Positions 1,816 through 14,567 of a stretch of 64,000 nucleotides of DNA are shown here, in pieces; position 1 is the first letter of the stretch, and each line of letters opens with the position of its first letter. Source of the stretch: Aneurinibacillus aneurinilyticus ATCC 12856 (GTDB lineage Bacteria > Bacillota > Bacilli > Aneurinibacillales > Aneurinibacillaceae). The stretch lies in the NCBI RefSeq assembly GCF_000466385.1, contig NZ_KE952665.1, forward strand, positions 14,673-78,672, given 5' to 3'. Both the position numbers and the translations under genes were made by a program. The notes below the pieces were generated by a model that did not search any database, was not told the origin of the DNA, and saw nothing but the letters and a program-made list of their open reading frames with translations.

Positions 1816-1847
1816 TACAATAAATAATGTGTTAGACTTCAATAAAT

Positions 1848-1862
1848 GGTATACAATATACC
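1848..1862. promoter_or_regulatory. Predicted GntR operator O1
   Basis: GGTATACAATATACC is a perfect inverted repeat of GGTATA around CAA. It is the best copy of a motif seen seven times between 1.8 and 14.2 kb. Palindromes centred on GTATAC are typical targets of FCD-type GntR regulators, and one is encoded at 9737. It sits in the leader of the permease gene at 1992. Confidence 0.7.
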
Positions 1863-1884
1863 TTGATGAAGGGAGGTGTATTTC

Positions 1885-1902
1885 ATGAAACCTTGTATGT
1901 AG
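1885..1902 (+). CDS. Possible five-codon leader peptide (MKPCM)
   Basis: An ATG at 1885 sits 6 bases after a strong GGGAGGTG ribosome site and stops after five codons. It lies between operator O1 and the permease start. It may be a leader peptide, or a decayed gene start. Confidence 0.25.
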   Translation: MKPCM

Positions 1903-1991
1903 AGCGCATGTAAGCCGGTTAATATAACAGAATATTTAGTCTAAAGAGAGTATTAACAATAAAAGGGATAACTAGGCAAGGAGGGGTATGC

Positions 1992-3422
1992 ATGGACTGG
2001 GATATAGCGCATATCATTTATGCGTTAGGTGCTATCACCGTCGTGATGGCGATGCTTTTTCGCAAAGGAGTTATTATTCCTTCACTCGTTACTACCTTTC
2101 TGCTGGGTTGGGCGTATAAAGGAGGATTCGGCGAAGGAATTATAGCAGGATTGGCTGCGATTTACAACGCAAACATCATGGCGGCAAAAGAACTATTCAG
2201 CATTATTTTGCTTATTGCGTTCATGGTGGGAATGTTGAATGCACTCAAAGAGCTTGGTGCTGATCGAAAGATGATTGCGCCCATCCAGAGAATTATGGTA
2301 AATGGACATGCGGCTTACTGGATTTTATTCATAGCTACGGCATTGTTATCTACCGCATTCTGGCCCACACCAGCCGTTCCGTTGGTTGCAGCTGTATTAA
2401 TACCAGTTGCGCTGCGGGTCGGATTGCCACCAATGGGTATTGCTATCGCAATTACGCTGGCAGGACAAGGAATGGCACTGTCAGCCGATGCATTGATGCA
2501 GGTAGCACCAGCACTGTCTGCAAAGGCAGCCGGGATGCCTCAATTGTCGGAAGCAATATGGATAAAATCAATTATACTCACGTTAATTGTTGGTGGCGTA
2601 GCAAGTATTATCTCATATGTCCGTATCGCTAAAACGATTAAGAAGCCGAAAGGGCAAGGGCAGCTGGATGAATTGGACGAGAAGTATTTTGAAGAAGGCG
2701 AGGCAGAAGCCGCTGCTACGCTAGAGTTTATGCCCCAAAAAGAATCAGGGGTCACCGCAACTTTTTTCGCTATCTTTACTATCGTCATGTTTCTGCTTGA
2801 TATTGTCGCGATGAGTATGTTTGATATTAAAGGTGGAGATGCTGGGGCATTAATCGGAGGAACTGCAGCCATTATTATGCTTGTGGCAACAATTGTTAGG
2901 CACAGGGGAGAGGCATTCGAAGAAATCGGAGAGCGGCTGACTGAAGGGTTTGGCTTTGCCATTAAAATTATGGGATCTATCATTCCGATTGCTGCCTTCT
3001 TCTTTCTAGGTGGACAGGAGCATTCTACTGCTGTATTCGGTGAAGGGGCACCAGGGTTTCTGTTCGATATTGTAGAAGGGATGCAGGCTTATATCCCAAG
3101 CAATGAGTTTATCGCCGCCTTCGGCGTGCTGCTTGTAGGCATTGTGTGCGGGATTGACGGCTCCGGATTTGCCGGTCTGCCAATTACCGGAGCTCTTGCC
3201 GGCGCGTTATCACACGGGACAGGCATCGATACGTCGATGCTGGCAGCAGTGGGGCAGATGGGCTCCATTTGGTCTGGAGGCGGTACGTTTATCGCGTGGT
3301 CATCGCTCATTGCTGTTGCTGCGTTCGTCGGTGTTTCCCCGATTGAACTGGCACGAAAGAACTTTTTGCCCGTTATGATCGGACTTATCCTTGCTACCAT
3401 ACTTGCTGTTGTTATTTGGTGA
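1992..3422 (+). CDS. Multi-pass permease, ion-transporter superfamily-like
   Basis: A 476-residue, very hydrophobic protein with about eleven or twelve predicted membrane segments, and a charged cytoplasmic loop near residues 215-245 rich in Glu/Asp/Lys. Small-residue-rich segments such as the SAFWPTPAVPL and GIDGSGFAGLP stretches resemble the re-entrant loops of ion-transporter superfamily carriers (GntP, DcuC, citrate and Na+/H+ antiporter relatives). I infer uptake of an organic anion or amino compound. Operator O1 in its leader places it in the GntR regulon, so it is the likely importer of the pathway substrate. The ATG at 1992 follows GGAGGGG. It is convergent with yyaC and shares a terminator with it. 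Exact family not identified. Confidence 0.75.
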   Translation: MDWDIAHIIYALGAITVVMAMLFRKGVIIPSLVTTFLLGWAYKGGFGEGIIAGLAAIYNANIMAAKELFSIILLIAFMVGMLNALKELGADRKMIAPIQRIMVNGHAAYWILFIATALLSTAFWPTPAVPLVAAVLIPVALRVGLPPMGIAIAITLAGQGMALSADALMQVAPALSAKAAGMPQLSEAIWIKSIILTLIVGGVASIISYVRIAKTIKKPKGQGQLDELDEKYFEEGEAEAAATLEFMPQKESGVTATFFAIFTIVMFLLDIVAMSMFDIKGGDAGALIGGTAAIIMLVATIVRHRGEAFEEIGERLTEGFGFAIKIMGSIIPIAAFFFLGGQEHSTAVFGEGAPGFLFDIVEGMQAYIPSNEFIAAFGVLLVGIVCGIDGSGFAGLPITGALAGALSHGTGIDTSMLAAVGQMGSIWSGGGTFIAWSSLIAVAAFVGVSPIELARKNFLPVMIGLILATILAVVIW

Positions 3423-3434
3423 GTAAGCAGACGA

Positions 3435-3480
3435 AAAGCCGTTGGATAGTGGATTACACCACATGGTCAGCGGCTTTTTT
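3435..3480. terminator. Terminator shared by permease and yyaC
   Basis: AAAAGCCG pairs with CGGCTTTT and is followed by Ts. The right arm lies inside the 3' end of yyaC. Confidence 0.6.
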
Positions 3481-4020
3481 GACGTTCTTTTCGATGAGTG
3501 CCGATGCATTAAATAAGGCTGTAGCGATTGTTTTAGCCATATTGCGTACCGACTTTTCATTCGCATTTTGCAGCATCATATAGTTGTAAGGACCAGTTGT
3601 ATTTACAATGCCTTTGATATGAATATCGCCTATTTGAGGAAGTGACTTTTTCATGCTGTTGCCGGGAAAAAGGGGCCCTTCTACCAATTGAATGTAGCCG
3701 ATATGGTGTAGGTGGCCAAGGGAAGCGTCAATTGCCACAATAAACGGATCAGTATATTTTTCATAGATTTCCTGCATCGTATCCTGTAGATTCAAGGCGT
3801 GTACTGGCTCCTTAATTGTGCCGTAAATATGTGTATTTTTAAGCTCGCTGTCCTGAAGCAATGTGCCTATCATCGGTCCAAGCGCATCACCGCTCGCTTT
3901 AATGGTTCCGATGCAGACGAATACAAGAGGTCTTTCTCCGGCTGTCCTGAATAGAAGTGTCAGGCTGTTACATAAATGGACAGCGGCGTTTCTTTCTTTA
4001 TAATGCATTTGTATAATCAC
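3454..4020 (-). CDS. yyaC: Sporulation protein YyaC, spore-protease-like
   Basis: 188 residues, matching the YyaC family, which has the fold of the germination protease Gpr. The family signature is visible: a FVCIGT strand, then SGDALGPMIG, YGTIKEPVHALNL, and a VAIDASLG segment with the conserved Asp. In Bacillus the family is linked to sporulation; its substrate is not firmly known. The GTG start at 4020 is preceded by GGAGAG at good spacing. Monocistronic, divergent from the creatininase-family gene and convergent with the permease, so it interrupts the GntR regulon. Confidence 0.88.
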   Translation of the reverse strand: MIIQMHYKERNAAVHLCNSLTLLFRTAGERPLVFVCIGTIKASGDALGPMIGTLLQDSELKNTHIYGTIKEPVHALNLQDTMQEIYEKYTDPFIVAIDASLGHLHHIGYIQLVEGPLFPGNSMKKSLPQIGDIHIKGIVNTTGPYNYMMLQNANEKSVRNMAKTIATALFNASALIEKNVKKAADHVV

Positions 4021-4093
4021 ATCTATCTCTCCAAATATGTTTTTTTATAGTATACCACATCACATAAAGTTCACTTTGTGCTGCCAGTCATAA

Positions 4094-4126
4094 ACTATAT
4101 ACCTCTGATTTGATAAATTGACAAAT
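4094..4126 (+). repeat. Dispersed intergenic repeat, copy R2
   Basis: Matches copy R3 (26437-26476) at about 29 of 33 positions over the core ACTATATAC...GATTTGATAAAT. One of the differences turns TCGACA into TTGACA, which makes a consensus -35 box for the downstream gene. Confidence 0.6.
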
Positions 4127-4147
4127 AAATTCTACTTATTCTTTAAA
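4118..4147 (+). promoter_or_regulatory. Predicted sigma-A promoter of creatininase-family gene
   Basis: TTGACA (4118-4123) is followed after 18 bases by TTTAAA (4142-4147). The operator O2 starts five bases later, the usual place for a repressor site. Confidence 0.5.
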
Positions 4148-4151
4148 TTAT

Positions 4152-4166
4152 GGTATACAATATACA
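4152..4166. promoter_or_regulatory. Predicted GntR operator O2
   Basis: GGTATACAATATACA, one mismatch from the perfect palindrome O1, directly after the predicted -10 of the creatininase-family gene. Confidence 0.7.
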
Positions 4167-4207
4167 ATATAAAAAATAAAAAAACAATGAGATAGGGAGG
4201 CATATTT

Positions 4208-4963
4208 GTGAATATATATGATTTACAGCAAATGACCTGGCCAGAAATTAAGGAGGCATTGGAGCGGGCAAGACTAGCGATTGTACCGATTGGAGCGCAT
4301 GAGCAGCATGGACCGCATATGGTAGAAAGCTGCGATGCTGTTCTAGCGAAGAAAATGGCAGACAGACTGGCTGCACGGCTTCATCCGCTCACTGTCGTCG
4401 CTCCCGCAGTCACAATGGGCGTATCGCCACACCATATGAACTTTCCAGGCACCATTTCGCTGCAGCCGGAAACGATGGTAAGCCTGCTAAGGGATATTAC
4501 CTCCTCATTAAAGTATCATGGCATTGTGAACTTTCTCTGGTTAAATGCGCATGGAGGCAATCAATCTACATTATCGATTGCTTGTCAGAAGTTGAGCGTT
4601 GAGCTGGATGTAACGATTTATTATGCAAAAACGACGGCAAGTGCAAGCGAGGTTTATAAAGAGCGTATTTCTTCCTCACCGTTTGGTCATAGTTGCGAGC
4701 GGGAAGTATCTGAAGCGTATTATCTGGCACCAGAATTGCTGAGGAAAGAATGTTTGCAGCAGGGACAATTAAATGAAAATCCCCGTTGGCGTCATCTGCG
4801 TCCAGGTAATCCGCTTCAGGGATTTTATCGTTATGAGGAGATGACGGAGAATGGATGTATCGGAGATGCCACACAGGGCAGCTATGAGCTTGGCGAAAAA
4901 ATTGTCGAGACAGCGCTTGATCGGCTGGAAGAGGAGATCCGTTTTTTGCTGTACGCACAATAG
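4208..4963 (+). CDS. Creatininase-family metal-dependent amidohydrolase
   Basis: 251 residues, normal for the family (creatininase, MftE, ArfB), whose members hydrolyse cyclic or N-formyl amides or cleave peptide ends with two divalent metals. Visible metal-site motifs: PIGAHEQHG with Glu32 and His34, the conserved Asp43 of the ESCDA segment, NAHGGN with His115, and GHSCEREVSEA with His161 and Glu164, which corresponds to the HAG-E-ETS motif. The GTG start at 4208 follows AGGGAGG. The gene has its own promoter and operator O2 and is the only gene of its unit. In this regulon it probably opens an amide or removes a formyl group from an intermediate; the true substrate is unknown. Confidence 0.85.
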   Translation: MNIYDLQQMTWPEIKEALERARLAIVPIGAHEQHGPHMVESCDAVLAKKMADRLAARLHPLTVVAPAVTMGVSPHHMNFPGTISLQPETMVSLLRDITSSLKYHGIVNFLWLNAHGGNQSTLSIACQKLSVELDVTIYYAKTTASASEVYKERISSSPFGHSCEREVSEAYYLAPELLRKECLQQGQLNENPRWRHLRPGNPLQGFYRYEEMTENGCIGDATQGSYELGEKIVETALDRLEEEIRFLLYAQ

Positions 4964-5008
4964 TTTACGAAGAATTTATAGAAAAGTCTAATTTTTAAAT
5001 AAAATTCG

Positions 5009-5036
5009 TTGACATGTTGTTTATATGTGTTAATAT
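5009..5036 (+). promoter_or_regulatory. Predicted sigma-A promoter of the diiron-oxidase operon
   Basis: TTGACA (5009-5014), a 16-base spacer and TAATAT (5031-5036). Operator O3 starts 19 bases after the -10, so a bound repressor would sit at the transcription start. Confidence 0.6.
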
Positions 5037-5054
5037 AAAAGCAAGAAAAAATTT

Positions 5055-5069
5055 GGTATACAATATACT
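5055..5069. promoter_or_regulatory. Predicted GntR operator O3
   Basis: GGTATACAATATACT, just after the predicted promoter. Its centre is 94 bases from the centre of O4, which would allow looping. The leader between them (5073-5131) can pair AGAGC with GCTCT and GTCTGT with ACAGAT. Confidence 0.7.
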
Positions 5070-5148
5070 AAAAGAGCGAGTCTGTATGTTCTGTTAAACT
5101 AGAAGCGAGACAGATTAAAAGGACAAGCTCTACTTCTTTCGCCAATTT

Positions 5149-5163
5149 GGTATACAATATACA
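5149..5163. promoter_or_regulatory. Predicted GntR operator O4
   Basis: GGTATACAATATACA, ending at the ribosome binding site AAGGAGG of the gene at 5178. A protein bound here would block elongation or loop to O3. Confidence 0.7.
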
Positions 5164-5177
5164 AGGAGGAATGAATT

Positions 5178-5888
5178 ATGGCTGAATTAATGGACAAGGA
5201 AGTATTTCGTGAGAAGCTGGAGGCAGCGGTAAAAGGCAACAGCAGTGAGGTTGCTCCGTTTACAAACGCATGGGCTGAAGGACAATTAACGCGCGAGCAG
5301 TTCGCAAAATGGGTAGAACAGCATTATCACTATGTTGGACCGTTCGCAGATTACCTAGGGTATATGTACTCCAATTGTCCGTATGAGGATGCGAAGGATT
5401 TCCTCCTGCAAAACATGTGGGAAGAAGAGCTGGGGGGAGATCGTCATACCGATTTGCTCATCCGCTTTGGTGAAGTATGCGGCACGACGCGCGAGCAGGT
5501 TGAAAATCCGAATAACATGTTGGCGACGACACTGGGATTGCAGAGCTGGTGCTATGCGATGGCTATGCGTGAAAACTTCATTGTCGCAACCGCAGCGCTT
5601 ATCGTTGGCCTCGAATCGCAGGTTCCGGGCATTTATCGTAAGCAGACGCCGACCTTACGTGAGAAGTATGGATTTACTGACCATGAAATCGAATTCTTCG
5701 ACCTGCATATTGTTTCTGATGAAATCCACGGAGAGCGTGGCTATCAAATCGTCCTGAAATATGCGGATACCCCGGAGTTGCAGGATCGTTGCCTGAAGGC
5801 GGTACAAAAAGCAACAGAAATGCGCCGGATGTACATCGACGGTATTTATCGCGCTTTTGTAGATGAAAAACCGTACGCTACATTATAA
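5178..5888 (+). CDS. Heme-oxygenase-like diiron oxidase/oxygenase (PqqC/CADD-like)
   Basis: 236 residues, all-helical, of the TenA/PqqC superfamily. Automated tools may call it thiaminase or PqqC, but it carries the six-ligand set of heme-oxygenase-like diiron oxidases: Glu83-x6-His90 (EEELGGDRH), Glu146 (GLESQVP) and His177-x3-Asp181-x2-His184 (HIVSDEIHG). The spacing of the last triad equals that which I recall for Chlamydia CADD. Known members (UndA, BesC, SznF, CADD) use O2 to cleave C-C bonds, oxidise amines or remodel amino acids. First gene of an operon running to about 11243 with promoter, O3 and O4 upstream. The ATG at 5178 is 8 bases after AAGGAGG. A ferredoxin of the same regulon (14250) could supply electrons. 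Substrate unknown; the fold and metal site are a confident inference, the reaction is not. Confidence 0.82.
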   Translation: MAELMDKEVFREKLEAAVKGNSSEVAPFTNAWAEGQLTREQFAKWVEQHYHYVGPFADYLGYMYSNCPYEDAKDFLLQNMWEEELGGDRHTDLLIRFGEVCGTTREQVENPNNMLATTLGLQSWCYAMAMRENFIVATAALIVGLESQVPGIYRKQTPTLREKYGFTDHEIEFFDLHIVSDEIHGERGYQIVLKYADTPELQDRCLKAVQKATEMRRMYIDGIYRAFVDEKPYATL

Positions 5889-5987
5889 CAGAAAATTAAA
5901 AATATGAAGAGCGGCTCTCTCGTACAGGGAGGGCTGTTTGTACTCTATCGCTACTATATAACATTGCCAGGCTAAGGAGGAAATGTA

Positions 5988-7445
5988 GTGACGATAACTG
6001 CAGGCATAAAAATCTATCATAACTTAATCGATGGTCAATGGGTGGAGCCTTCTACGGGTCAATATTTTGAAAGCATAAACCCTGCCAATATTGATGATTG
6101 CGTAGGGAGATTTCCGGCTTCTGATGCAGCGGATGCACAGCGGGCTATTGCTGCCGCGCGTCAGGCGCAAAAAGATTGGGCGAAGTACCCTCCATCGAAG
6201 AAAGCGATCATCCTCTACAGGGCTGCCGATTTATTGGAAGAAAGAGCCGAGCAATACGGACGGGAATTGACCCGAGAAGAAGGAAAGGTGCTGGCGCAAG
6301 CGGTAATGGAAGTGCAACGCTCAGCGCAAACGCTACGCTATTACGCTTCTGAAGGATTGAATGTAGCTGGCCAGACATTACCTACTGATGACGGAAGCTT
6401 GCTCTATACGAGACAAGAACCTCTTGGTGTTGTCTCTGTAATTACACCATGGAATTTTCCTATTTCGATTCCTGCACGTAAAATTGCCCCTGCTCTGGTG
6501 ACAGGTAATACAGTTATTTTTAAACCAGCCTCTGATACACCGCTTGCCGGACTGCGTCTTGCAGAATGTTTGCATGAAGCGGGATTGCCTGCTGGTGTGC
6601 TGAACTTCATTACAGGTTCCGCAGGGAAAATTGGAGACATTCTTGTTTCGCATAAGGAGATTAATGCAGTTACGTTTACAGGTTCTACACATGCAGGGGC
6701 ACAAATCCATAAAAATGCTTCATTCAGGACGCGCCTTCAGCTTGAATTAGGTGGAAAAAATCCTCTTATTGTAATGGATGATGCTAATGTAGAGCAAGCG
6801 GTACAGATGACGATTGCCGGAGGCTTCAGCTTAACAGGGCAAGCATGCACAGGAACGAGTCGTGTATTTGTGATGGCAGCGATATATGACACATATGTCA
6901 AGCAGCTTGTAGAGGCGACAGAGAAGCTTACTATCGGTAACGGTCTGGATGAAGGAAACAAGCTGGGACCGCTCGCTAATGAAAATCAATTGCATAACGT
7001 GCTTGCATATGTGGAAAGTGGCAAGGCAGAAGGAGCCACGCTTCTTATTGGCGGTGAACAATTAACGGCAGGAAATTTGGGCAAAGGCTATTACGTATCG
7101 CCGGCTATATTCGTCGATGTGCACCCGGAGATGAAGATTATGCGTGAAGAAATTTTTGGTCCGGTTATCGGTGTACAGAAGGTTTCTTCATTTGATGAAG
7201 CACTGGCATTGGCTAATGATACGGAGTATGGATTAGCGGCAGCGATTTGTACATCTGATGAGAGTACAGCAACCCGATTTACTGAACAAATCGAGGCTGG
7301 TATGGTAAAAGTCAATAAACCGACAACGGGTGTTGCATATAATGCGCCATTCGGCGGCATGAAAAATTCCAGTACGGCCACTTACCGCGAGAGCGGACGT
7401 GATGCGCTAGGCTTTTATGTCCAGACCAAGACAATATATCGATAA
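5988..7445 (+). CDS. Aldehyde dehydrogenase, 2,5-dioxovalerate/semialdehyde type
   Basis: 485 residues. Motifs: PWNFP with Asn156, FTGST, LELGGKNP with Glu253, and GFSLTGQACTGTSRV with catalytic Cys287. The last segment is characteristic of alpha-ketoglutaric semialdehyde (2,5-dioxopentanoate) dehydrogenases such as YcbD/GucD, so a semialdehyde substrate is likely but not proven. GTG start at 5988, 7 bases after AAGGAGG. It lies 99 bases after the diiron-oxidase gene with no strong terminator between (an imperfect GC hairpin at about 5911-5940 may attenuate), so the two are probably co-transcribed. It is a different subfamily from the aldehyde dehydrogenase at 198, which suggests two different aldehydes. 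Confidence 0.9.
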   Translation: MTITAGIKIYHNLIDGQWVEPSTGQYFESINPANIDDCVGRFPASDAADAQRAIAAARQAQKDWAKYPPSKKAIILYRAADLLEERAEQYGRELTREEGKVLAQAVMEVQRSAQTLRYYASEGLNVAGQTLPTDDGSLLYTRQEPLGVVSVITPWNFPISIPARKIAPALVTGNTVIFKPASDTPLAGLRLAECLHEAGLPAGVLNFITGSAGKIGDILVSHKEINAVTFTGSTHAGAQIHKNASFRTRLQLELGGKNPLIVMDDANVEQAVQMTIAGGFSLTGQACTGTSRVFVMAAIYDTYVKQLVEATEKLTIGNGLDEGNKLGPLANENQLHNVLAYVESGKAEGATLLIGGEQLTAGNLGKGYYVSPAIFVDVHPEMKIMREEIFGPVIGVQKVSSFDEALALANDTEYGLAAAICTSDESTATRFTEQIEAGMVKVNKPTTGVAYNAPFGGMKNSSTATYRESGRDALGFYVQTKTIYR

Positions 7446-7511
7446 AATGGAAAGGGATATTGCTGCTCGTTAAGGGGGCGAATAAAGTGAAAAAAGAAGG
7501 GAGAATGCGAG

Positions 7512-7985
7512 ATGCGGCAAGTGCTACAGTTAGAGCTAGAAGAAGCGAAGGTCATGATTGAAGCGGCACGGAAAAAGGCGGAGGAAATTGGCGTGCTGGA
7601 GACGATTTGCATTGTGGATGGCGGCGGTTATGCGATTGCGCTAGAGAGAATGAACGGCTCCCGTATTACCGGGGTAGAAATATCGCTGGCCAAAGCGTTC
7701 ACAGCATCCGGACATAAGCGTTCCACACACTTATTTAATAAAGAAGGAGGACCGGCAGCCGTCGGAGGTGAAGCTTTCGGTATTCAACAGATGATTCCGG
7801 GCAAGTTCGCTATTTTTGTCGGAGGCTTTCCTATAGTAGTGAACGGAGAGGTCATAGGCGGAGTTGGCGTCAGCGGAGGAAATGGTGAGCAGGATACAGC
7901 GGTTGGTGTCGCCGCACTCGAAGCACTACAGAATTATCTGGGTAATGAATTCGAAGTTCTGGTACAGGCTGATATCAAAAAATAA
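7512..7985 (+). CDS. GlcG/HbpS family protein (PF03928-type)
   Basis: 157 residues covering the whole GlcG/HbpS/PduO-C domain: an N-terminal helix, the CIVDGGG strand-turn, a KAFTASGHKRST helix, a PGKFAIFVGGFPI strand and the closing GGVGVSGG motif. The family includes heme-binding HbpS of Streptomyces and small proteins found in glycolate and diol operons; the role of most is unknown. The ATG at 7512 follows GGGAG. It sits between the semialdehyde dehydrogenase and the MFS transporter in the operon. It might bind or carry an intermediate, or bind heme; neither can be told from sequence. Confidence 0.85.
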   Translation: MRQVLQLELEEAKVMIEAARKKAEEIGVLETICIVDGGGYAIALERMNGSRITGVEISLAKAFTASGHKRSTHLFNKEGGPAAVGGEAFGIQQMIPGKFAIFVGGFPIVVNGEVIGGVGVSGGNGEQDTAVGVAALEALQNYLGNEFEVLVQADIKK

Positions 7986-8026
7986 CGGAAGAAGAAAATC
8001 TTCTCCGGTACAAAGAGGCGGTACGG

Positions 8027-9502
8027 ATGGCACAGCCGTTGGTCAAACCGCATGGCGTGGTTCCCCCTCAGCGGACCGGTGCACGAGCGGCGGAATTAAA
8101 TCGCATGTTGCTGGCAATTTGCCTGGGGGCCTTTGTTTCCCATCTGACAGCAGGGATTGTCAACATTGCACTACCGGGGCTTTCTGCTACCTTTCAACAG
8201 GATATCTCCCTTATGCAGTGGGTTGCTTCCGGTTATCTGCTCGTTATCGCCGCCCTTCTGCCGATGATGGGAAAATGGGGAGATCGGTTTGGAAACAGAA
8301 GAATACACAATATAGGGTATATTATTTTCGGCCTTAGTTCGCTCCTGACTTTATTTGCAAATACGATATATGGCCTGCTTTTGCTTCGGGTTATTCAAGC
8401 ATTCGGCGCCGCTATGTTTCAGGCGACGAATATCGGACTCGTTAGTCGCTACTTTCCCGCTGAATCACGTGGACGGGCACTTGGATTCGTGAGCACTGCG
8501 GTTGCCCTTGGGGCATTAAGCGGTCCGATGATTGGCGGACTGATTATGGATTGGCTGAATTGGCACTGGCTATTTCTTATACATGTACCGGTGCTGGTCA
8601 TTGCCACCCTTCTTGCGTTCCGCTATATTCCAGCCGATCCGCCGGGAGCTGCACATACGCCGGATTGGGTCGGCGGGATATTGTTCGCAGTTGGTATCGT
8701 CGCATTTATCTTTAGTATTTCTAACGGAAATGCATGGGGATGGACCTCGTATGGTATTATGTTCACATTCGCTCTCAGCCTGCTGGCGCTTGCTGGATTA
8801 TACTGTTGGCTTGGTAGGCGCGTTAGACGAAAGCGGGAGCCGTTCATTAATGTATCCTTATTTGCAAAACCGACGGTTTTGGCCGGTATGTTTGTTGGAT
8901 TGACTACGTTCATCGCTGTGTTTGCTACACAAGTGACCCTTCCGTTCTATTTGCTAGGAGTGCGGCATTTTGCTCCGACGCAGGCCGGCATGATGATTAT
9001 GATGTATCCGGTTGCGTTAGGAATTATGGGACCGATTAGTGGCTCGCTATCCGATAAGCACGGGTCGTCAAGAATTACTATGATAGGACTTATCTTCATG
9101 TCTGGATCGCTTATTTTCCTATGTTCCATTGGCAATCAAACGCCAGTAAGCCTGCTCGCCCTTGGTCTGCTTGGCCTTGGTGCTGGGATGGGAATGGTTA
9201 CATCACCGAATTATAGTTTAATTATGGGAAGTGTTGATAAAAGCAATCTTGGCGCTGTCGGAGGGCTAGTGGCACTGGTACGCAATTTGGGATTGGTAAT
9301 CGGAACGGCAATGGGCATTGCCCTTTTGGATTATGCATTTCCTGGCTCCATTTCAAGATGGATGGCAACAAAAGAAGTAGCTTATGCGCCTTATGTAGTC
9401 TCAGGTCTGCGAACCGTATTTATGATATCATTTGCATTCTGCTTGCTTGGCATTTTATTTTTACGGCTTGCACTGCGGAGGCGGGCCCTGCAAGCAAAGT
9501 AA
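8027..9502 (+). CDS. MFS transporter, DHA2 (EmrB/QacA) type
   Basis: 491 residues with about fourteen predicted membrane segments. The cytoplasmic loop-2 motif appears as GKWGDRFGNRR, and the segment-5 motif typical of drug:H+ antiporters as LGALSGPMIGG. Members export drugs or metabolites or, less often, import substrates, using the proton gradient. It starts 41 bases after the GlcG-like gene in the same operon. In this catabolic setting it may export a toxic intermediate or move the substrate; the second transporter of the regulon is at 1992. The sharp basic C-terminus is normal. Confidence 0.88.
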   Translation: MAQPLVKPHGVVPPQRTGARAAELNRMLLAICLGAFVSHLTAGIVNIALPGLSATFQQDISLMQWVASGYLLVIAALLPMMGKWGDRFGNRRIHNIGYIIFGLSSLLTLFANTIYGLLLLRVIQAFGAAMFQATNIGLVSRYFPAESRGRALGFVSTAVALGALSGPMIGGLIMDWLNWHWLFLIHVPVLVIATLLAFRYIPADPPGAAHTPDWVGGILFAVGIVAFIFSISNGNAWGWTSYGIMFTFALSLLALAGLYCWLGRRVRRKREPFINVSLFAKPTVLAGMFVGLTTFIAVFATQVTLPFYLLGVRHFAPTQAGMMIMMYPVALGIMGPISGSLSDKHGSSRITMIGLIFMSGSLIFLCSIGNQTPVSLLALGLLGLGAGMGMVTSPNYSLIMGSVDKSNLGAVGGLVALVRNLGLVIGTAMGIALLDYAFPGSISRWMATKEVAYAPYVVSGLRTVFMISFAFCLLGILFLRLALRRRALQAK

Positions 9503-9519
9503 AAAATGGGGGGACATCA

Positions 9520-9706
9520 TGGGGGATGAACAGATGTTTAACGTTTTTTTCGAGCCGGTATGCTAGGCTATGGCAGCGGACTTTTGATGCTCCCGCTCAT
9601 CCATGTGGAAGCCGTAAAACGGTACCCTTGTTATCAGTTCTTCCTTGCTTTATGGTGCTGCGTTCTTGCCATAAGGTTGTGAATTTGCACAGCATCCAGT
9701 AAGCTT
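9520..9706 (+). pseudogene. Decayed 5' fragment of a TauE/SafE-like permease gene
   Basis: The 234-base gap between the MFS and gntR genes reads as a broken membrane protein. An ATG at 9520 opens a frame that stops after 15 codons. Adding one T to the seven-T run at 9544-9550 joins it to a frame encoding RAGMLGYGSGLLMLPLIHV, which fits the TauE/SafE motif G-x-x-G-x-G-x-G...P. A second shift near 9620 gives a further hydrophobic stretch (GTLVISSSLLYGAAFLP) and then a stop. Only about 60 codons of a roughly 250-codon family remain. Family assignment rests on one motif. Confidence 0.4.
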
Positions 9707-9736
9707 AGAGGAAAGAGATACAAGGAGGAATATTGT

Positions 9737-10414
9737 ATGCAAGCTGACACATGGGCAAAAGAAGAATTAAGCCCTATACGGGATAAAGTGTATCGCTATA
9801 TTAAAGAAATGATTTTGAACGGCGAATTGGTGGCAGGTGAGCGAATTGTGGAGCGTGAGTTGGCAGATAAACTTAATATTAGTCGCACACCGATTCGCGA
9901 AGCGCTTTTTCGCTTAGAATCTCAAGGCTTCGTAAAAACACTCCCCCGCAAAGGTGTGGTTGTCTCGAAAATGACCACAGAAGAAATTATTGAAATTTTT
10001 ACGATTTTATCCTCGCTGGAAAGCCTTTCAGTTAAGCTGGCCGCCAACAAAGTAACAGAGGAAGAAAAGATTCAGCTTGCCGACCAGATTAAAGAAATTG
10101 ATAAATTATTGGAGCGAACGGATTTGGATACGAAGCATCTTACTGATTTACACGTCGATGTGAACGAAACGATCTATAAGCTGGCGAGAAGCCCGCGTTT
10201 ATATGAAATGCTACACAGTCTGCTTGAATATATTCAGGCATTCGCAACAGTTGGACAGGAAGTGCCAGGCAGGTTACGCAAGTCGCTTGAAGAGCATCGC
10301 GCTATTGCGCTTGCAGTACAGCATGGGGACAGTGAATTGGCCGAACATCTGGCGAAAATCCATATTGCCAATTCAAAGGCAGCGTATCTTGAAGCGCTGC
10401 AAATGGAGTCATAG
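9737..10414 (+). CDS. GntR family regulator, FadR/FCD subfamily
   Basis: 225 residues. The N-terminal winged helix (about 10-75) has the classic GntR run IVERELADKLNISRTPIREAL; the C-terminal all-helical FCD ligand domain (about 80-215) has conserved Asp/His positions including HVDVNETIY and EEHRAI, which bind metal and a carboxylate effector in this family. ATG at 9737 after AAGGAGG. It is encoded inside the operon whose promoter carries O3/O4 and is the only GntR protein in the window, so it is the likely binder of the seven GGTATAC palindromes, probably as a repressor released by a pathway carboxylate. It may autoregulate through O3/O4. Confidence 0.92.
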   Translation: MQADTWAKEELSPIRDKVYRYIKEMILNGELVAGERIVERELADKLNISRTPIREALFRLESQGFVKTLPRKGVVVSKMTTEEIIEIFTILSSLESLSVKLAANKVTEEEKIQLADQIKEIDKLLERTDLDTKHLTDLHVDVNETIYKLARSPRLYEMLHSLLEYIQAFATVGQEVPGRLRKSLEEHRAIALAVQHGDSELAEHLAKIHIANSKAAYLEALQMES

Positions 10415-10441
10415 CGAATCGTTGATAAGGGAGGGTATACA

Positions 10442-10720
10442 ATGAGCAACAAAATTAAAGTGGAATTTTGCCAGAACAACGTAAACCGCCATGCCTCTTC
10501 ACGGCATGCTCTTGCGTTCGTGAAGGAGCATGTGTCTGAGGATACAGTGCATCTGGTAGAGATGAAATGCGGAGGAATTTGCGTTGCTTGCAAGATGAGT
10601 CCCTATGCACTAATCGATAAAAAGTATGTAACGTCCCTTGATGCGGAGGAATTTTTTCAACGGTTTAAAAAAGAGCTGGAAAAACAAACAGCGGCGGCTA
10701 TGGCCAGGAAGGCGATATGA
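10442..10720 (+). CDS. DUF1450 (YuzB-like) small cysteine protein
   Basis: 92 residues. It resembles the DUF1450 family of Bacillales: an N-terminal strand ending VEFC (Cys10), then MKCGGICVACKMSPYALID with Cys43, Cys47 and Cys50. The cysteine spacing suggests metal or Fe-S binding, as in thioredoxin-like ferredoxins, but this has not been shown for the family to my knowledge. It starts 27 bases after gntR, with ATG after GGGAGG, and ends one base before the RidA-family gene, so the three are co-transcribed. Family members are usually free-standing; its place in a catabolic operon is unusual. Confidence 0.75.
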   Translation: MSNKIKVEFCQNNVNRHASSRHALAFVKEHVSEDTVHLVEMKCGGICVACKMSPYALIDKKYVTSLDAEEFFQRFKKELEKQTAAAMARKAI

Positions 10721-10721
10721 G

Positions 10722-11243
10722 ATGCACATTGAAAAAAGGCTGGCGCTTTATGGTATCGAACTGACGGATTGTCCGGATATTACCAAATCGTACATTACGT
10801 CAACGACTGACAAATATCATGTATATGTTAGCGGAATTCAGGTGCATTGTCCTAGCAATCTATTCCATGAAGGCCATATTATTGGTAAGCAATTATCCAC
10901 GAAATGGTTAGAAGCGTGCGCACGCCGCAGTCTTGCAAATCAGTTAAGTATGCTAAAGCGCATTGTTGAGGATTTAGATATAGTCGACCATATTATTAAA
11001 ATGGTTTATTATATTAACGGTATTGGGACGAAAGAAGATTGGAGACAGGTAACAAAGGAAACAACGGATATTATGCGAGAAGTATTCGGTGAGGCAGGCG
11101 ATTGTGAAATATGTACAATTGCACCTGTTCCACTACCTCCGGGCCAGCCGGTACAGATCGATCTTCTCGTTTCCTTGCCATCTTCGCCGCGTTCGAACTC
11201 TTTACACGTATGTGAAGGAGTAAAAGGCAATGGATCATTTTAA
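10722..11243 (+). CDS. RidA/YjgF family protein (imine/enamine deaminase-like)
   Basis: 173 residues. It has the longer RidA-family layout (the group that starts ERL...GIELP and ends PVEVE-IV): MHIEKRLALYGIELTD, a VSGIQV strand, an ARRSLANQLSMLKRIVEDLD helix, VYYINGIG, and VFGEAGDCEICTIAPVPLPPGQPVQIDLLV. RidA proteins hydrolyse reactive enamines/imines to ketones and ammonia; some relatives are 2-aminomuconate deaminases. The canonical Arg of RidA, normally before the SAVG-like strand, is not obvious here (GDCEICTIA replaces the usual RSAVG), so activity may differ. ATG at 10722, one base after the DUF1450 stop. Last gene of the operon. Confidence 0.78.
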   Translation: MHIEKRLALYGIELTDCPDITKSYITSTTDKYHVYVSGIQVHCPSNLFHEGHIIGKQLSTKWLEACARRSLANQLSMLKRIVEDLDIVDHIIKMVYYINGIGTKEDWRQVTKETTDIMREVFGEAGDCEICTIAPVPLPPGQPVQIDLLVSLPSSPRSNSLHVCEGVKGNGSF

Positions 11244-11251
11244 TTTTATAT

Positions 11252-11266
11252 GGTATACAAAATACA
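11252..11266. promoter_or_regulatory. Predicted GntR operator O5 (downstream of RidA gene)
   Basis: GGTATACAAAATACA, identical over 16 bases with O6, but in a convergent 3' region and directly ahead of a terminator, with no downstream gene on that strand. It may be a relic, a roadblock, or an extra loop anchor. Confidence 0.5.
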
Positions 11267-11306
11267 AAAGCTAGTGCTTTGTTTATACAAAGCCCCTAGC
11301 TTTTTT
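11266..11306 (+). terminator. Terminator of the diiron-oxidase operon
   Basis: AAAAGCTAG/CTAGCTTTT and GCTTTG/CAAAGC form a long stem with a TTTATA loop and a T-run. Confidence 0.85.
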
Positions 11307-11391
11307 GTCGTATAAGAAAATAGATGTTTTTGCAAATCGTGCAGTTGGCAGGCAAAAAAGGATGAACGACAGCACCCCACATATTTTTCTT

Positions 11392-13086
11392 CTATGTTTT
11401 AAACTGGCTAATTTCAGTCTGTAGTTCATGAGAAAGTCTACTAAGCGAATCGGCTGCAGTGCTAACTTCTTCGATAGAGGCCAATTGTTCCTGGGCTGCT
11501 GCTGCTACCCCCTGTGTTCCATTGGCAATTGATTCCGAGACAAGGAGCAATTGTTCCAAAGAGGACGTCATCTGAAATGTACTGGCCGAGATTTGCTCTG
11601 CGCTGACGGAAACCTCCTGAACCTCTTCTGCCACCTGCTGAACGAGTGTGAAGATACGCGTAAACGCACTACCTGCTTCATCCACAATGACCGTGCCAGC
11701 TTCTGCTTCGTTGGTTCCATAGTCCATCGCTTGTATTGCCTGTTCTGTACGCTGTTGAATCTGGGTGATACGTGCGGCAATATGTTCTGTCGATTGTCGG
11801 GACTGTTCGGCCAGTTTTCGTACTTCGTCGGCAACGACGGCAAAGCCTTTGCCGTGTTCACCTGCCCGTGCGGCTTCAATAGCTGCATTTAATGCAAGTA
11901 GATTCGTTTGATCGGCAATTTGCTGAATTACTTGCGCAATATTGCAGATTTCCTGTGAGCTTTCTCCTAAGGCATGGATACTATCAGACGATTCTTTAAC
12001 GGATTTTTGAATGCTTTGCATTTGCTGTATGGCTCTTGTAATAACCTCTTGCCCTTGACGAGCCTCCTCAAGTACATCTGATGCTGAACCGGATACCATA
12101 GAGGTTGCCTTGGCTATTCGTTGCACAGCCTGTGCATTTTCACTGATTGCATGCTTGCTTTCGCTCATGCCTTTGGCCTGTCGCTCAGCGCCGCTGGCTA
12201 CCTCTTGAATAGTAGAAGCGACCTGGGTGGCGATTTCTGCCGTTTGCTCCGCACTAACGTACAGGTCTTTGGAGGAGGCGGCTACATGCTTTGCTGTACT
12301 ATCGGATTTCTGAATGAGCGTTCGAATGTTTTGCTTCATTAGGTTAAATGTTTGCGACATTTCACCCAGCTCATCTTTGTTTTTGACTATCACATCCGGT
12401 CCCGATAGGATACCGGCTGCGATTTCCCGTGCATTAGCTGTTAGTGCACGTACCGGAATGAAAATAAGGCGGCTGATATACATAGCGATAACACAGCTTC
12501 CGGCAAGCGCAAGCAAGCAAATAGTGAAAATCGTCATCTTAATAATCGTTACACGCTTGGTGGTTTCGGCGATGCTCTTCTGTAGAAGTTCCTGCTGCAT
12601 TAGCCCGAACTCTTTGGCCTTGGTGAGGAATTGTCTGCTTGTTACTTTTTCTTTTTCTTGTATTAAGCGTAAGTATTCTTGCTGGTTGTTTTGCTGCTTA
12701 TAGAAAATAATTTGGTAGGCTGTATCGTTGTAGGAGGTTTGGAGTTGATTCAATTGGCTGAGCTGGTTTTTATTGTCGGCCTGACTGGTGGTAGAACCGA
12801 GTTTCCCGCTGATTTTTATGTATTCATTTTTGGCTGCTTCATAGTATTTTAAGCTTCCTTCATCACCCGTCAGCAAATATTCGCGCAGGGTTGCCGATTG
12901 TTCATTGGCTAGAGTGGTCAATTCTTTCACTAGTATCATTTTCTCCATACGATCATTGACTACTTGCTGATAAATTCGATCAACTACTGAAAGTTGATAA
13001 CTAGCAATTCCTGTGGCGATGCCAGATAGCAGCAGGACAGCAAGAAATCCGTAAAACAATTTCTTCTGGATCGACATGCGCATCAT
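11392..13086 (-). CDS. Methyl-accepting chemotaxis protein (4HB sensor)
   Basis: 564 residues. TM1 about 9-31, an extracytoplasmic helical domain (about 33-190) of the four-helix-bundle/CHASE3 type, TM2 about 191-213, HAMP, and a full signalling hairpin with the invariant tip [21 protein letters not shown]. Ligand cannot be predicted. The ATG at 13086 is 6 bases after GGGGAG. Monocistronic, bounded by terminators. It sits inside the catabolic cluster, between the RidA gene and the aspartate-dehydrogenase gene, and may sense the pathway compound, but it has no GGTATAC palindrome upstream. Confidence 0.92.
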
Positions 13087-13202
13087 ACTATGCTCCCCTT
13101 TCTAAAATTTACTTACTCGCACAAAGAAATATGTGACTATTATAATAGTTTTGAAAATACTTTAGTTTTATTTATTTTAGCTGAAAAGTATTAATTTGAC
13201 GA

Positions 13203-13252
13203 TAGAAAAGAGAAAAACCTCCAAAATTTTCTGGAGGTTCTTCTCTTTTCTA
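13203..13252. terminator. Bidirectional terminator downstream of nadX
   Basis: TAGAAAAGAGAA and AACCTCC pair with GGAGGTT and TTCTCTTTTCTA, leaving AAAATTTTCT as loop. T-runs on both strands. Confidence 0.8.
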
Positions 13253-13275
13253 TGTCTATGTTCATAGATAAAAGT

Positions 13276-14091
13276 TTATACGCCTATCACAAAAGGATTC
13301 GTATACTGGCGTAACACTTTAACAATACTCATTGCGACAATGTATCCTGTTTTTGGATTGTGTGCTGAAGGGGTGTTTTGTAGGGATAGTTTAATTCTTC
13401 CGGCGAATCCTTCGACAATAATTTGATGTGTATTCCGTGTAATGGTAGGGTCCACATATACTTGGACATGTGTATTTTCAAATCCGATTCCTGCCAGACT
13501 CAAGGCTGCGGATACATTGACACTTTCGGGAAAAAGCAACGCCGATTCGTTAGCCGTTCCGTTAAAAATGAGAGTTGGTTCAGATACGGCAGAAAGTTCT
13601 ACCTTTTCTTCCGCGAATGTGCCATACCAGGCGACTGGAGGCTTACGCGTAATCAGTTCGATACGATCGATTTCTTCAAGAGTCATGGCACAAATACGGT
13701 CCAATCCACCGATAGCAGCGGAAGGAACGAGCAGTTGAGTATGGTATTGTGCTGCAGTAGCCCGTAATTCTTTCAATACATTTGCTTCGGCTAGTGCCCC
13801 GATGCTTGCCACGATGAAGGAAGCGTGACGGAGCGCGCGCACCCCGTATGTTTTTACGGCTGTATGTCCGGCTGCTTCTACAATAATATCCATATCCTCG
13901 GCAAAGAACGCGTCCTCATCTGATGTAATAAGGCAGGAAGCAGGCAGACGATAATCCCGGGATTCATTGCGGACAAGTGCGGCTTTTACTTCGATCTGTT
14001 CAGCATAGCGTTCCATGCTATATGACGCGACAGCATGTCCGATAGTACCAAGGCCGATAATTCCGATTTTAATCGCATTCAATCTTTTCAC
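13276..14091 (-). CDS. nadX: L-aspartate dehydrogenase family protein (NadX/DUF108)
   Basis: 271 residues, two domains as in the family: an N-terminal Rossmann fold with GIIGLGTIGHAV, then the DUF108 domain with PSAAIGGLD, ITRKPP, FNGTANESALLFPESVNVSAALSLAG, DPTITRNTHQI and NPKTGYIVAMS. Members convert L-aspartate (or a relative) to iminoaspartate with NAD(P)+, or run in reverse. Iminoaspartate is a natural RidA-type substrate and RidA lies in the same regulon. Operator O6 ends just before the gene. The GTG at 14091 is the longest start; a TTG at 14082 has a better-spaced AGGTAGGTG. Not next to nadA/nadC here, so a catabolic role is more likely than NAD synthesis; the amine substrate may not be aspartate itself. 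Confidence 0.85.
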   Translation of the reverse strand: MKRLNAIKIGIIGLGTIGHAVASYSMERYAEQIEVKAALVRNESRDYRLPASCLITSDEDAFFAEDMDIIVEAAGHTAVKTYGVRALRHASFIVASIGALAEANVLKELRATAAQYHTQLLVPSAAIGGLDRICAMTLEEIDRIELITRKPPVAWYGTFAEEKVELSAVSEPTLIFNGTANESALLFPESVNVSAALSLAGIGFENTHVQVYVDPTITRNTHQIIVEGFAGRIKLSLQNTPSAHNPKTGYIVAMSIVKVLRQYTNPFVIGV

Positions 14092-14100
14092 CTACCTAAT

Positions 14101-14115
14101 TGTATTTTGTATACC
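14101..14115. promoter_or_regulatory. Predicted GntR operator O6
   Basis: On the minus strand GGTATACAAAATACA, directly after a TATACT -10-like box and before the nadX start. Confidence 0.65.
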
Positions 14116-14173
14116 AAAAGTATATAAAAAAAGTGTGAATAATACTAGTTCAAATTGTAAAATATTAAATTTT

Positions 14174-14188
14174 AGTATATTGTATACC
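14174..14188. promoter_or_regulatory. Predicted GntR operator O7
   Basis: On the minus strand GGTATACAATATACT, identical to O3. It overlaps the likely -10 region of the ferredoxin promoter (TTGTAA at 14155, 17-base spacer). Centre is 73 bases from O6 in this divergent promoter. Confidence 0.65.
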
Positions 14189-14249
14189 AAAAGTGAAGTA
14201 TGTATGATATAGTTGGAATAATTAGAATACGAAAGGCAGGGAACAGAGG

Positions 14250-14567
14250 ATGCAAAAAATTGATTTCAAAACTAGTGGCAAAAAATTAGAGGTTTCTAAA
14301 GAATCAAATCTATTGCGCATGTCGATTCGTTACGAAGGTGGTATTCCCTATAAATGCGGGGGCGGCATTTGCGGTACATGCGTTGTAAAAATTGATGATG
14401 GAGCACAGAACTTGAGCAAAGTAAGCAAGAAGGAAGTCGAGAGATTGGGTGAAGACCTGATTGCTCAAGGGTATCGGCTTGCATGCCAAACGTTTGTTAA
14501 TGGAGATGTAGAATTGAACTGGGAAGAGAACCCGATCCGTCCGAAACGTAAAGCCGCTGCAAAATAA
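14250..14567 (+). CDS. Plant-type [2Fe-2S] ferredoxin
   Basis: 105 residues. The cluster ligands are Cys36, Cys41, Cys44 and Cys79 in the pattern C-x4-C-x2-C-x34-C (YKCGGGICGTC ... ACQ), the plant/vertebrate fold. It ends in a basic tail (PKRKAAAK). Small electron carrier in the cytosol. Divergent from nadX, with operator O7 over its promoter, so it belongs to the GntR regulon. In that regulon the obvious electron sink is the predicted diiron oxidase at 5178; no dedicated ferredoxin reductase is visible in the window, so a housekeeping reductase would be needed. ATG at 14250 after an AAAGGCAGGG ribosome site. Confidence 0.9.
   Translation: MQKIDFKTSGKKLEVSKESNLLRMSIRYEGGIPYKCGGGICGTCVVKIDDGAQNLSKVSKKEVERLGEDLIAQGYRLACQTFVNGDVELNWEENPIRPKRKAAAK

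Follow-up and report, generated by a model that had tools for sequence, protein, structure and literature searches.

A conserved palindrome-marked regulon around an uncharacterized heme-oxygenase-like diiron oxidase in Aneurinibacillus aneurinilyticus ATCC 12856

Heme-oxygenase-like dimetal oxidases (HDOs) such as CADD, UndA, BesC and HrmI have a common seven-helix fold, which is shared by PqqC, and six metal-binding residues comprising three histidines and three carboxylates. The multicomponent oxygenases of the BenC and MmoC type combine a reductase, a [2Fe-2S] carrier, an oxygenase and a small accessory protein. Functional validation exists for about a dozen HDOs out of more than 10,000, and in the main text of the review that gives this number, where the term "ferredoxin" has no occurrence, the characterized enzymes are presented as belonging to natural-product or cofactor biosynthesis (PMC13108848). 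Here we describe a cluster of about a dozen genes at positions 1847-14567 of a 64,000 nt stretch of DNA from Aneurinibacillus aneurinilyticus ATCC 12856 (GCF_000466385.1, NZ_KE952665.1 positions 14,673-78,672, forward strand), hereafter called the window, within a genome of 5.3 Mb. The cluster is a real and conserved regulon around an uncharacterized HDO which, unlike the biosynthetic enzymes treated in that review, appears in a setting of catabolic type together with co-regulated ferredoxins.

The oxidase (5178-5888, + strand) matches Pfam Haem_oxygenas_2 and is related to CADD. Its AlphaFold model (predicted local distance difference test score, pLDDT, 92.7) was matched to CADD with Z 28.4 and a root-mean-square deviation of 1.6 Å over 213 residues, and further to PqqC (Z 27.9), UndA (25.0) and HrmI (25.0). 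The CADD residues E81, H88, E142, H174, D178 and H181, which we take to be the metal ligands, align with E83, H90, E146, H177, D181 and H184 of the oxidase; E83, H90, E146, H177 and H184 were found in 50 of 50 aligned rows and D181 in 49, the remaining row having Glu. By modeled fold and aligned six-ligand 3His/3carboxylate set the protein is an HDO, which agrees with the diiron oxidase named in the original prediction, and it should bind two metals and activate O2. The enzyme class is well fixed by these data. Since the nearest solved relatives are 4-aminobenzoate synthases (sequence E 4e-21, 25% identity, Z 28), the oxidase could be taken for a CADD-type para-aminobenzoate synthase in a cluster that serves folate metabolism. 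CADD, however, presumably self-sacrifices Tyr27 and Lys152, and these positions are occupied by T29 (T, S or A in 49 of 50 rows, Tyr in one) and Q156 (49 of 50, Lys in none). With both residues absent, identity as a para-aminobenzoate synthase was ruled out; moreover, the NCBIfam CADD model TIGR04305 gave 102.4 bits at a cut-off of 200 and no folate gene was recognized in the cluster, so that a folate role appears extremely improbable.

The units of the cluster share a palindromic operator with the consensus TGGTATAC-NN-TATACCA. Allowing up to three mismatches, TGGTATACAATATAC has 12 matches in the window compared to 1.57 expected, a number that none of 100 shuffles attained. Seven sites with zero or one mismatch, to which no strand is assigned, were located by motif search at 1847-1863, 4151-4167, 5054-5070, 5148-5164, 11251-11267, about 14100-14116 and about 14173-14189. 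Six of them lie 17-137 bp upstream of cluster genes, with distances from site center to gene start of 137 bp for the permease, 49 bp for the creatininase-like hydrolase, 116 and 22 bp for the oxidase operon, and 17 and 69 bp for the divergent pair of the NadX-like protein and the ferredoxin FdA. The seventh (11251) follows the RidA-like gene at the end of the operon and is not upstream of any gene. Three further Aneurinibacillus genomes retain a site at this place, with ridA on one side and mcp on the other (L014 4231, L015 10351, L016 16726). In the whole genome, the exact 13-mer GTATACAATATAC occurs five times, always within the cluster (reversed control: 0), and the only one-mismatch matches to the 17-mer TGGTATACNNNATACCA are the seven cluster sites. 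The claim that five transcription units share one palindrome was therefore borne out, with sites and genes where the original prediction had placed them. At three mismatches the 17-mer has a genome total of 481, which is not above the control (549), so single weak sites are meaningless.

Conservation was assessed in 92 loci annotated by tblastn with proteins from the window, Caballeronia, Cytobacillus and Paenibacillus, of which 90 were kept after removal of two duplicates (L022 and L023, equal to L015 and L017); loci shorter than 9 kb (L001-L009) and L104 were left uncounted. The 90 loci comprise the best 80 of 528 relatives together with loci from plasmids and from related genomes, which skews the resulting counts to close orthologues. 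The operator TGGTATACNNTATACCA was scanned over these loci with up to three mismatches, and first-order Markov shuffles, three per locus, served as null. We detected 544 matches (21, 100, 185 and 238 with 0, 1, 2 and 3 mismatches, respectively) compared to 11 expected, and 517 of the 544 are within reach of a cluster gene, while 40 palindromes with permuted half-sites gave a mean of 26.5 and a maximum of 88. At up to one mismatch, the real motif had 121 matches across 82 loci. Only 14 of the 544 sites are inside cluster coding sequence, although such sequence makes up half of the DNA, and each of the 90 loci has at least one operator upstream of some cluster gene. The strongest single argument comes from G013 and G014, in which the gene of an orphan protein of about 110 amino acids lies on a contig other than that of the cluster and still has an operator 17 bp (G013) or 19-26 bp (G014) upstream; that the unlinked gene keeps its operator argues for the palindrome marking a functional set and not a mere neighborhood.

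Outside the cluster the signal was examined at two mismatches genome-wide. G002 (16, control 10) and G005 (23, control 20) are near control, whereas G013 (37, control 10) and G014 (39, control 10) have an excess for which the cluster accounts only in part and which perhaps includes the similar operators of further GntR regulators. None of nine stretches at other operator-like sites in G007, G013, G014 and G037 was judged to be a regulon member; the only matches to cluster families that they held were a relative of the second permease (23% identity), an aldehyde dehydrogenase (ALDH; 37%) and an MFS protein (39%). Eight relatives without an oxidase orthologue contained three one-mismatch sites in total compared to six in the reversed control. 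The GntR/FCD regulator (9737-10414, + strand) scored above the cut-offs of PF00392 and PF07729, and gntR is present in 89 of 90 loci. It is presumed to be the repressor acting at the palindrome, a pairing that rests on the association of gntR with loci that all carry an operator upstream of a cluster gene.

Pfam backed the families that had been assigned to the window genes: creatininase, Haem_oxygenas_2, Aldedh, HbpS-like, MFS, GntR with FCD, DUF1450, Asp_DH_C and Fer2. The original parts list thus stood for the genes it named, but it had overlooked a second ferredoxin (FdB), the orphan protein, reductases, the replacement of NadX by an ornithine-cyclodeaminase (OCD)-family enzyme, a YyaC-like paralogue and a decayed pair of ChrA genes. 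The oxidase itself occurs in 90 of 90 loci, which is no finding, as the loci were selected by oxidase similarity. ALDH and the GlcG/HbpS-like protein are likewise present in all 90, followed by the permease (87), the creatininase-like protein (86), FdA (85), the orphan protein (81), FdB (80), a second permease (75), ChrA (69), the NadX-like protein (62), the RidA-like protein (53) and the YyaC-like protein (45). The oxidase orthologue group, with 68-99% identity, includes Cupriavidus and Caballeronia plasmid records, and the cluster was found in relatives of Bacillus and in soil relatives of Burkholderia.

The co-conservation of the genes had been proposed as a check, and a test without this selection bias was run with 61 genomes, namely the window genome and 60 relatives. 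Close NadX-like (at least 48% identity) and creatininase-like (at least 61%) genes were found in exactly the eight genomes that have an oxidase orthologue and in none of the 53 others, so that a lack of co-conservation, which would have refuted the original prediction, was not observed. Weaker homologues (31-37%) among the latter amounted to NadX in two and creatininase in one, and such homologues were located in G002, G012, G014 and G035. Among 398 evenly drawn Bacillota genomes, the orthologue was detected in one, the window genome itself; the cluster is a sparse and patchy trait. The Aneurinibacillus genome G001, which has no cluster orthologue, gave a ninth oxidase match in the set of 61, a 29%-identical CADD-like oxidase (L009, C85:2923-3624); this protein would have Tyr at the position of CADD Tyr27 only if it is the one Tyr-bearing row of the oxidase alignment.

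The loci of Cupriavidus appear compact, with permease, FdA, orphan protein, FdB, OCD-family enzyme, oxidase, ALDH, GlcG-like protein, reductase and GntR; creatininase-like, RidA-like and NadX-like genes were not found there by tblastn. As these loci retain the corresponding genes, the essential chemistry appears to comprise an oxygenation, the oxidation of an aldehyde and a step on an amino or imino acid. The hydrolases (a creatininase-like enzyme, or an alpha/beta hydrolase in Caballeronia) vary by lineage, and further transporters vary too, which would be in line with steps at the periphery. The evidence fixes the set of parts and their common operator well, and no description of the cluster was found in open-licence PMC papers searched by combined gene and enzyme names; within that literature the gene set matches no described pathway, as had been proposed.

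The redox partners of the oxidase differ among the loci. FdA (14250-14567, + strand; Pfam Fer2) has four conserved cysteines (C36, C41, C44 and C79), and FdB likewise has four. In the window, FdB is missing and a DUF1450 protein (10442-10720, + strand) with four conserved cysteines (C10, C43, C47 and C50) is encoded in the oxidase operon. DUF1450 is present in six of the 90 loci, all of which lack FdB; 80 have FdB and no DUF1450, and four have neither. This distribution suggests that DUF1450 is an alternative electron carrier in place of FdB; as five of the six DUF1450 loci are from Aneurinibacillus (the sixth being from Melghirimyces), the exclusion rests on few independent events. A reductase is encoded in four of four Burkholderiales loci, the one scanned copy (Caballeronia) being BenC-like below cut-off, and a family identified by a scan in L026 as thioredoxin-reductase/FNR-like is linked in 10 loci. 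The L026 gene has a one-mismatch operator 40 bp inside its called start, which is probably too early.

FdB is accompanied in 80 of 80 loci by the orphan protein (e.g. L071 7357-7692), which is predicted to consist mostly of strands and one helix (model pLDDT 81). It has no Pfam or NCBIfam match and no PDB match at E 0.001, and its best fold match has Z 3.4, which does not show that the fold is new. Because most clusters add FdB and the orphan protein and some a reductase, the oxidase probably serves a multicomponent oxygenase. This arrangement follows the logic of the BenC- and MmoC-type systems, but the terminal component would be an HDO and not a Rieske or ferritin-like protein, and the small protein has neither a Pfam or NCBIfam match nor a convincing fold match. 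The suggestion that a ferredoxin is the likely electron donor was supported, and the electron path is fixed moderately by the evidence.

Turning to the metabolic enzymes, the NadX-like protein (13276-14091, - strand) matched PF01958 (Asp_DH_C) with 103 bits and NF009828 with 205 bits (cut-off 177), while NCBIfam equivalog cut-offs were not reached. Its N220 and H222 are kept in at least 97% of 58 rows. The same N-x-H pair, which we take to have a role in aspartate dehydrogenase, is found in the aspartate dehydrogenase NadX (2dc1), with which the protein shares the C-terminal domain. In Burkholderiales an OCD-family enzyme takes its place. The closest solved relative of the latter is 3hdj, which has a "probable" name, and the iminosuccinate reductase BhcD (PDB 6rqa), a member of the same superfamily, was matched at E 3.5e-21. 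With the NCBIfam BhcD equivalog, the Caballeronia enzyme scored 113.5 bits (cut-off 500), and six other models scored higher. Few reactions are known to occur in both NadX and the OCD family, one of which is that on aspartate and iminosuccinate (NadX; BhcD). The exchange of one family for the other is therefore a hint of an aspartate/iminosuccinate step, which we regard as possible, though somewhat short of an even chance. In contrast to the NadX and BhcD systems, no NadA/NadB or beta-hydroxyaspartate-cycle gene was recognized in the clusters, in which no search was aimed at them.

The ALDH (5988-7445, + strand; Pfam Aldedh) had its best NCBIfam score, among the models shown, with alpha-ketoglutaric semialdehyde dehydrogenase (586.9 bits, equivalog cut-off 770), and the proposed handling of an aldehyde was supported. 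A 2-aminomuconate-type pathway, in which RidA acts together with an ALDH, was considered and rejected, as the 2-hydroxymuconic semialdehyde dehydrogenase model scored 355 compared to 587 for the best one. The creatininase-family hydrolase (4208-4963, + strand) was assigned by Pfam creatininase (208.8 bits, above cut-off) and stayed below the cut-off of the TIGR04448 equivalog (100.1 of 235 bits); for the proposed cleavage of an amide, family membership is the sole basis. The RidA-like protein (10722-11243, + strand), for which, as for the permease, neither Pfam nor NCBIfam gave a match at E 0.001, had been assigned the clearance of imines. In the alignment of cluster RidA rows, 47 of 52 have an arginine that we assume to be catalytic, and the five without it are the five Aneurinibacillus rows. 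In the window protein Ile replaces it, so that imine hydrolysis is doubtful.

We lean towards the view that the cluster is a substrate-induced catabolic regulon around an O2-using oxidase and breaks down a nitrogen-bearing compound. The GntR/FCD repressor would keep all units off by binding the palindrome until the substrate or an intermediate releases it, and the permease would import the substrate. The oxidase would activate O2 as the terminal component of a multicomponent oxygenase, in which electrons may pass from NAD(P)H via a reductase, encoded in some clusters and supplied by the cell in others including the window strain, and one or two [2Fe-2S] carriers (FdA and FdB, or FdA and DUF1450 in the window strain) to the diiron site. 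The oxygenated substrate would then break down to an aldehyde that ALDH converts to the acid, and the NadX-like protein, or the OCD-family enzyme in Burkholderiales, would carry out an amino- or imino-acid step, most likely from aspartate to iminosuccinate/oxaloacetate. The substrate might be an amino-acid-like compound, for instance a gamma-substituted 2-aminobutyrate or an N-substituted aspartate, whose oxygenation gives aspartate or its semialdehyde, but any named substrate is a guess that would probably prove wrong. In its widest form, which is rather doubtful and which we put forward tentatively, the proposal would make this the first HDO to act as terminal part of a catabolic multicomponent oxygenase, with a reductase, two [2Fe-2S] carriers (FdB being interchangeable with DUF1450) and a beta-rich orphan protein, that opens a nitrogen compound from a class for which no route of degradation is known. 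A single repressor would govern this system, its operator being conserved in both Bacillota and Burkholderiales.

Several observations weigh against this catabolic regulon or parts of it. The four Burkholderiales loci have one operator each, with three mismatches. In 24 of the 90 loci neither NadX nor OCD was found in the available stretch. A contig end cuts short just eight of these, so that the aspartate step may be absent from some of the clusters or be encoded at another place. For the OCD-family enzyme, the models of pyrroline-2-carboxylate reductase and of EutC gave higher scores than that of BhcD, with no cut-off reached, and the ALDH reached no equivalog cut-off among the models shown. 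The RidA-like protein, found in little more than half of the loci, lacks its arginine in the window. The orphan protein cannot be indispensable, because it is absent genome-wide at E 0.01 from six cluster-bearing genomes (the window genome G000, G002, G003, G005, G007 and G037). Finally, in what the review relates, characterized HDOs are biosynthetic (PMC13108848), and ChrA and MFS proteins are exporter types that would fit production and export too.

The cluster could accordingly make a small specialized amino acid or amine that ChrA, present in 69 of 90 loci, or an MFS protein exports, the permease being an exporter or serving precursor salvage. The window MFS gene (8027-9502, + strand) is DHA2-like, its best NCBIfam model being below cut-off, and occurs in four of 90 loci, all of them from Aneurinibacillus, while Caballeronia has a different MFS protein. 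However, no carrier protein, ligase, non-ribosomal peptide synthetase or polyketide synthase was recognized among the recurrent families, most of the 30 being judged by eye and some scanned. Uptake and use are further indicated by the presence of ALDH and of an enzyme from the aspartate dehydrogenase family, by control through GntR/FCD, and by an ABC importer (10 loci), a porin in Caballeronia and a chemoreceptor. We therefore consider biosynthesis unlikely.

A different catabolic substrate is conceivable in view of the ABC importer family, whose substrate-binding protein in L075 is SsuA-like below cut-off (88.7 of 163.5 bits) and belongs to a sequence cluster found in 10 loci. The oxygenase might free sulfite from an amino-sulfonate, e.g. 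homocysteate, yielding aspartate semialdehyde, then aspartate and oxaloacetate, and ChrA, which handles a sulfate analogue, might export sulfite or sulfate. Operator-like sites with two or three mismatches near an MpsC/DUF34 module in L032, L033, L058 and L075 also fit this proposal. SsuA-family proteins, however, also carry other compounds, the importer is limited to Paenibacillus and Brevibacillus loci, and no sulfite exporter or sulfite oxidase was recognized among the recurrent families, in which no search was aimed at them; a sulfonate substrate is thus quite improbable. The MpsC/DUF34 module and the ABC importer adjoin the cluster in some Paenibacillus and Brevibacillus loci (L075 206-5032, L032 4-5008).

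One HDO orthologue group now has a defined regulon, a handle for inducer screens (operator and GntR), putative redox partners and a compact Cupriavidus gene set, so that the substrate of the oxidase can be sought directly. Context was also gained for two transporter families, a small protein family, a GlcG/HbpS subfamily and DUF1450.

The two transporter families are represented by the permease (1992-3422, + strand) and the second permease (L071 5516-6898), neither of which gave a Pfam or NCBIfam match above cut-off or a PDB profile match at E 1. The GlcG/HbpS-like gene (7512-7985, + strand; Pfam HbpS-like) follows that of ALDH. The ChrA pair is present in three other Aneurinibacillus loci (L015-L017), whereas in the window it has decayed and the space from the MFS gene to gntR holds a remnant (9545-9668, + strand), which consists of an N-terminal piece of one ChrA followed by a C-terminal piece of the other. 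A methyl-accepting chemotaxis protein (11392-13086, - strand), for which no operator of its own was seen, is encoded in four of five Aneurinibacillus loci. YyaC is familiar as a spore-protease-like protein, and the YyaC-like DUF1256 gene of the window (3454-4020, - strand) is one of two paralogues, the other copy lying elsewhere in the genome (45% identical, C65). In the loci that have the cluster paralogue, it occupies two different positions.

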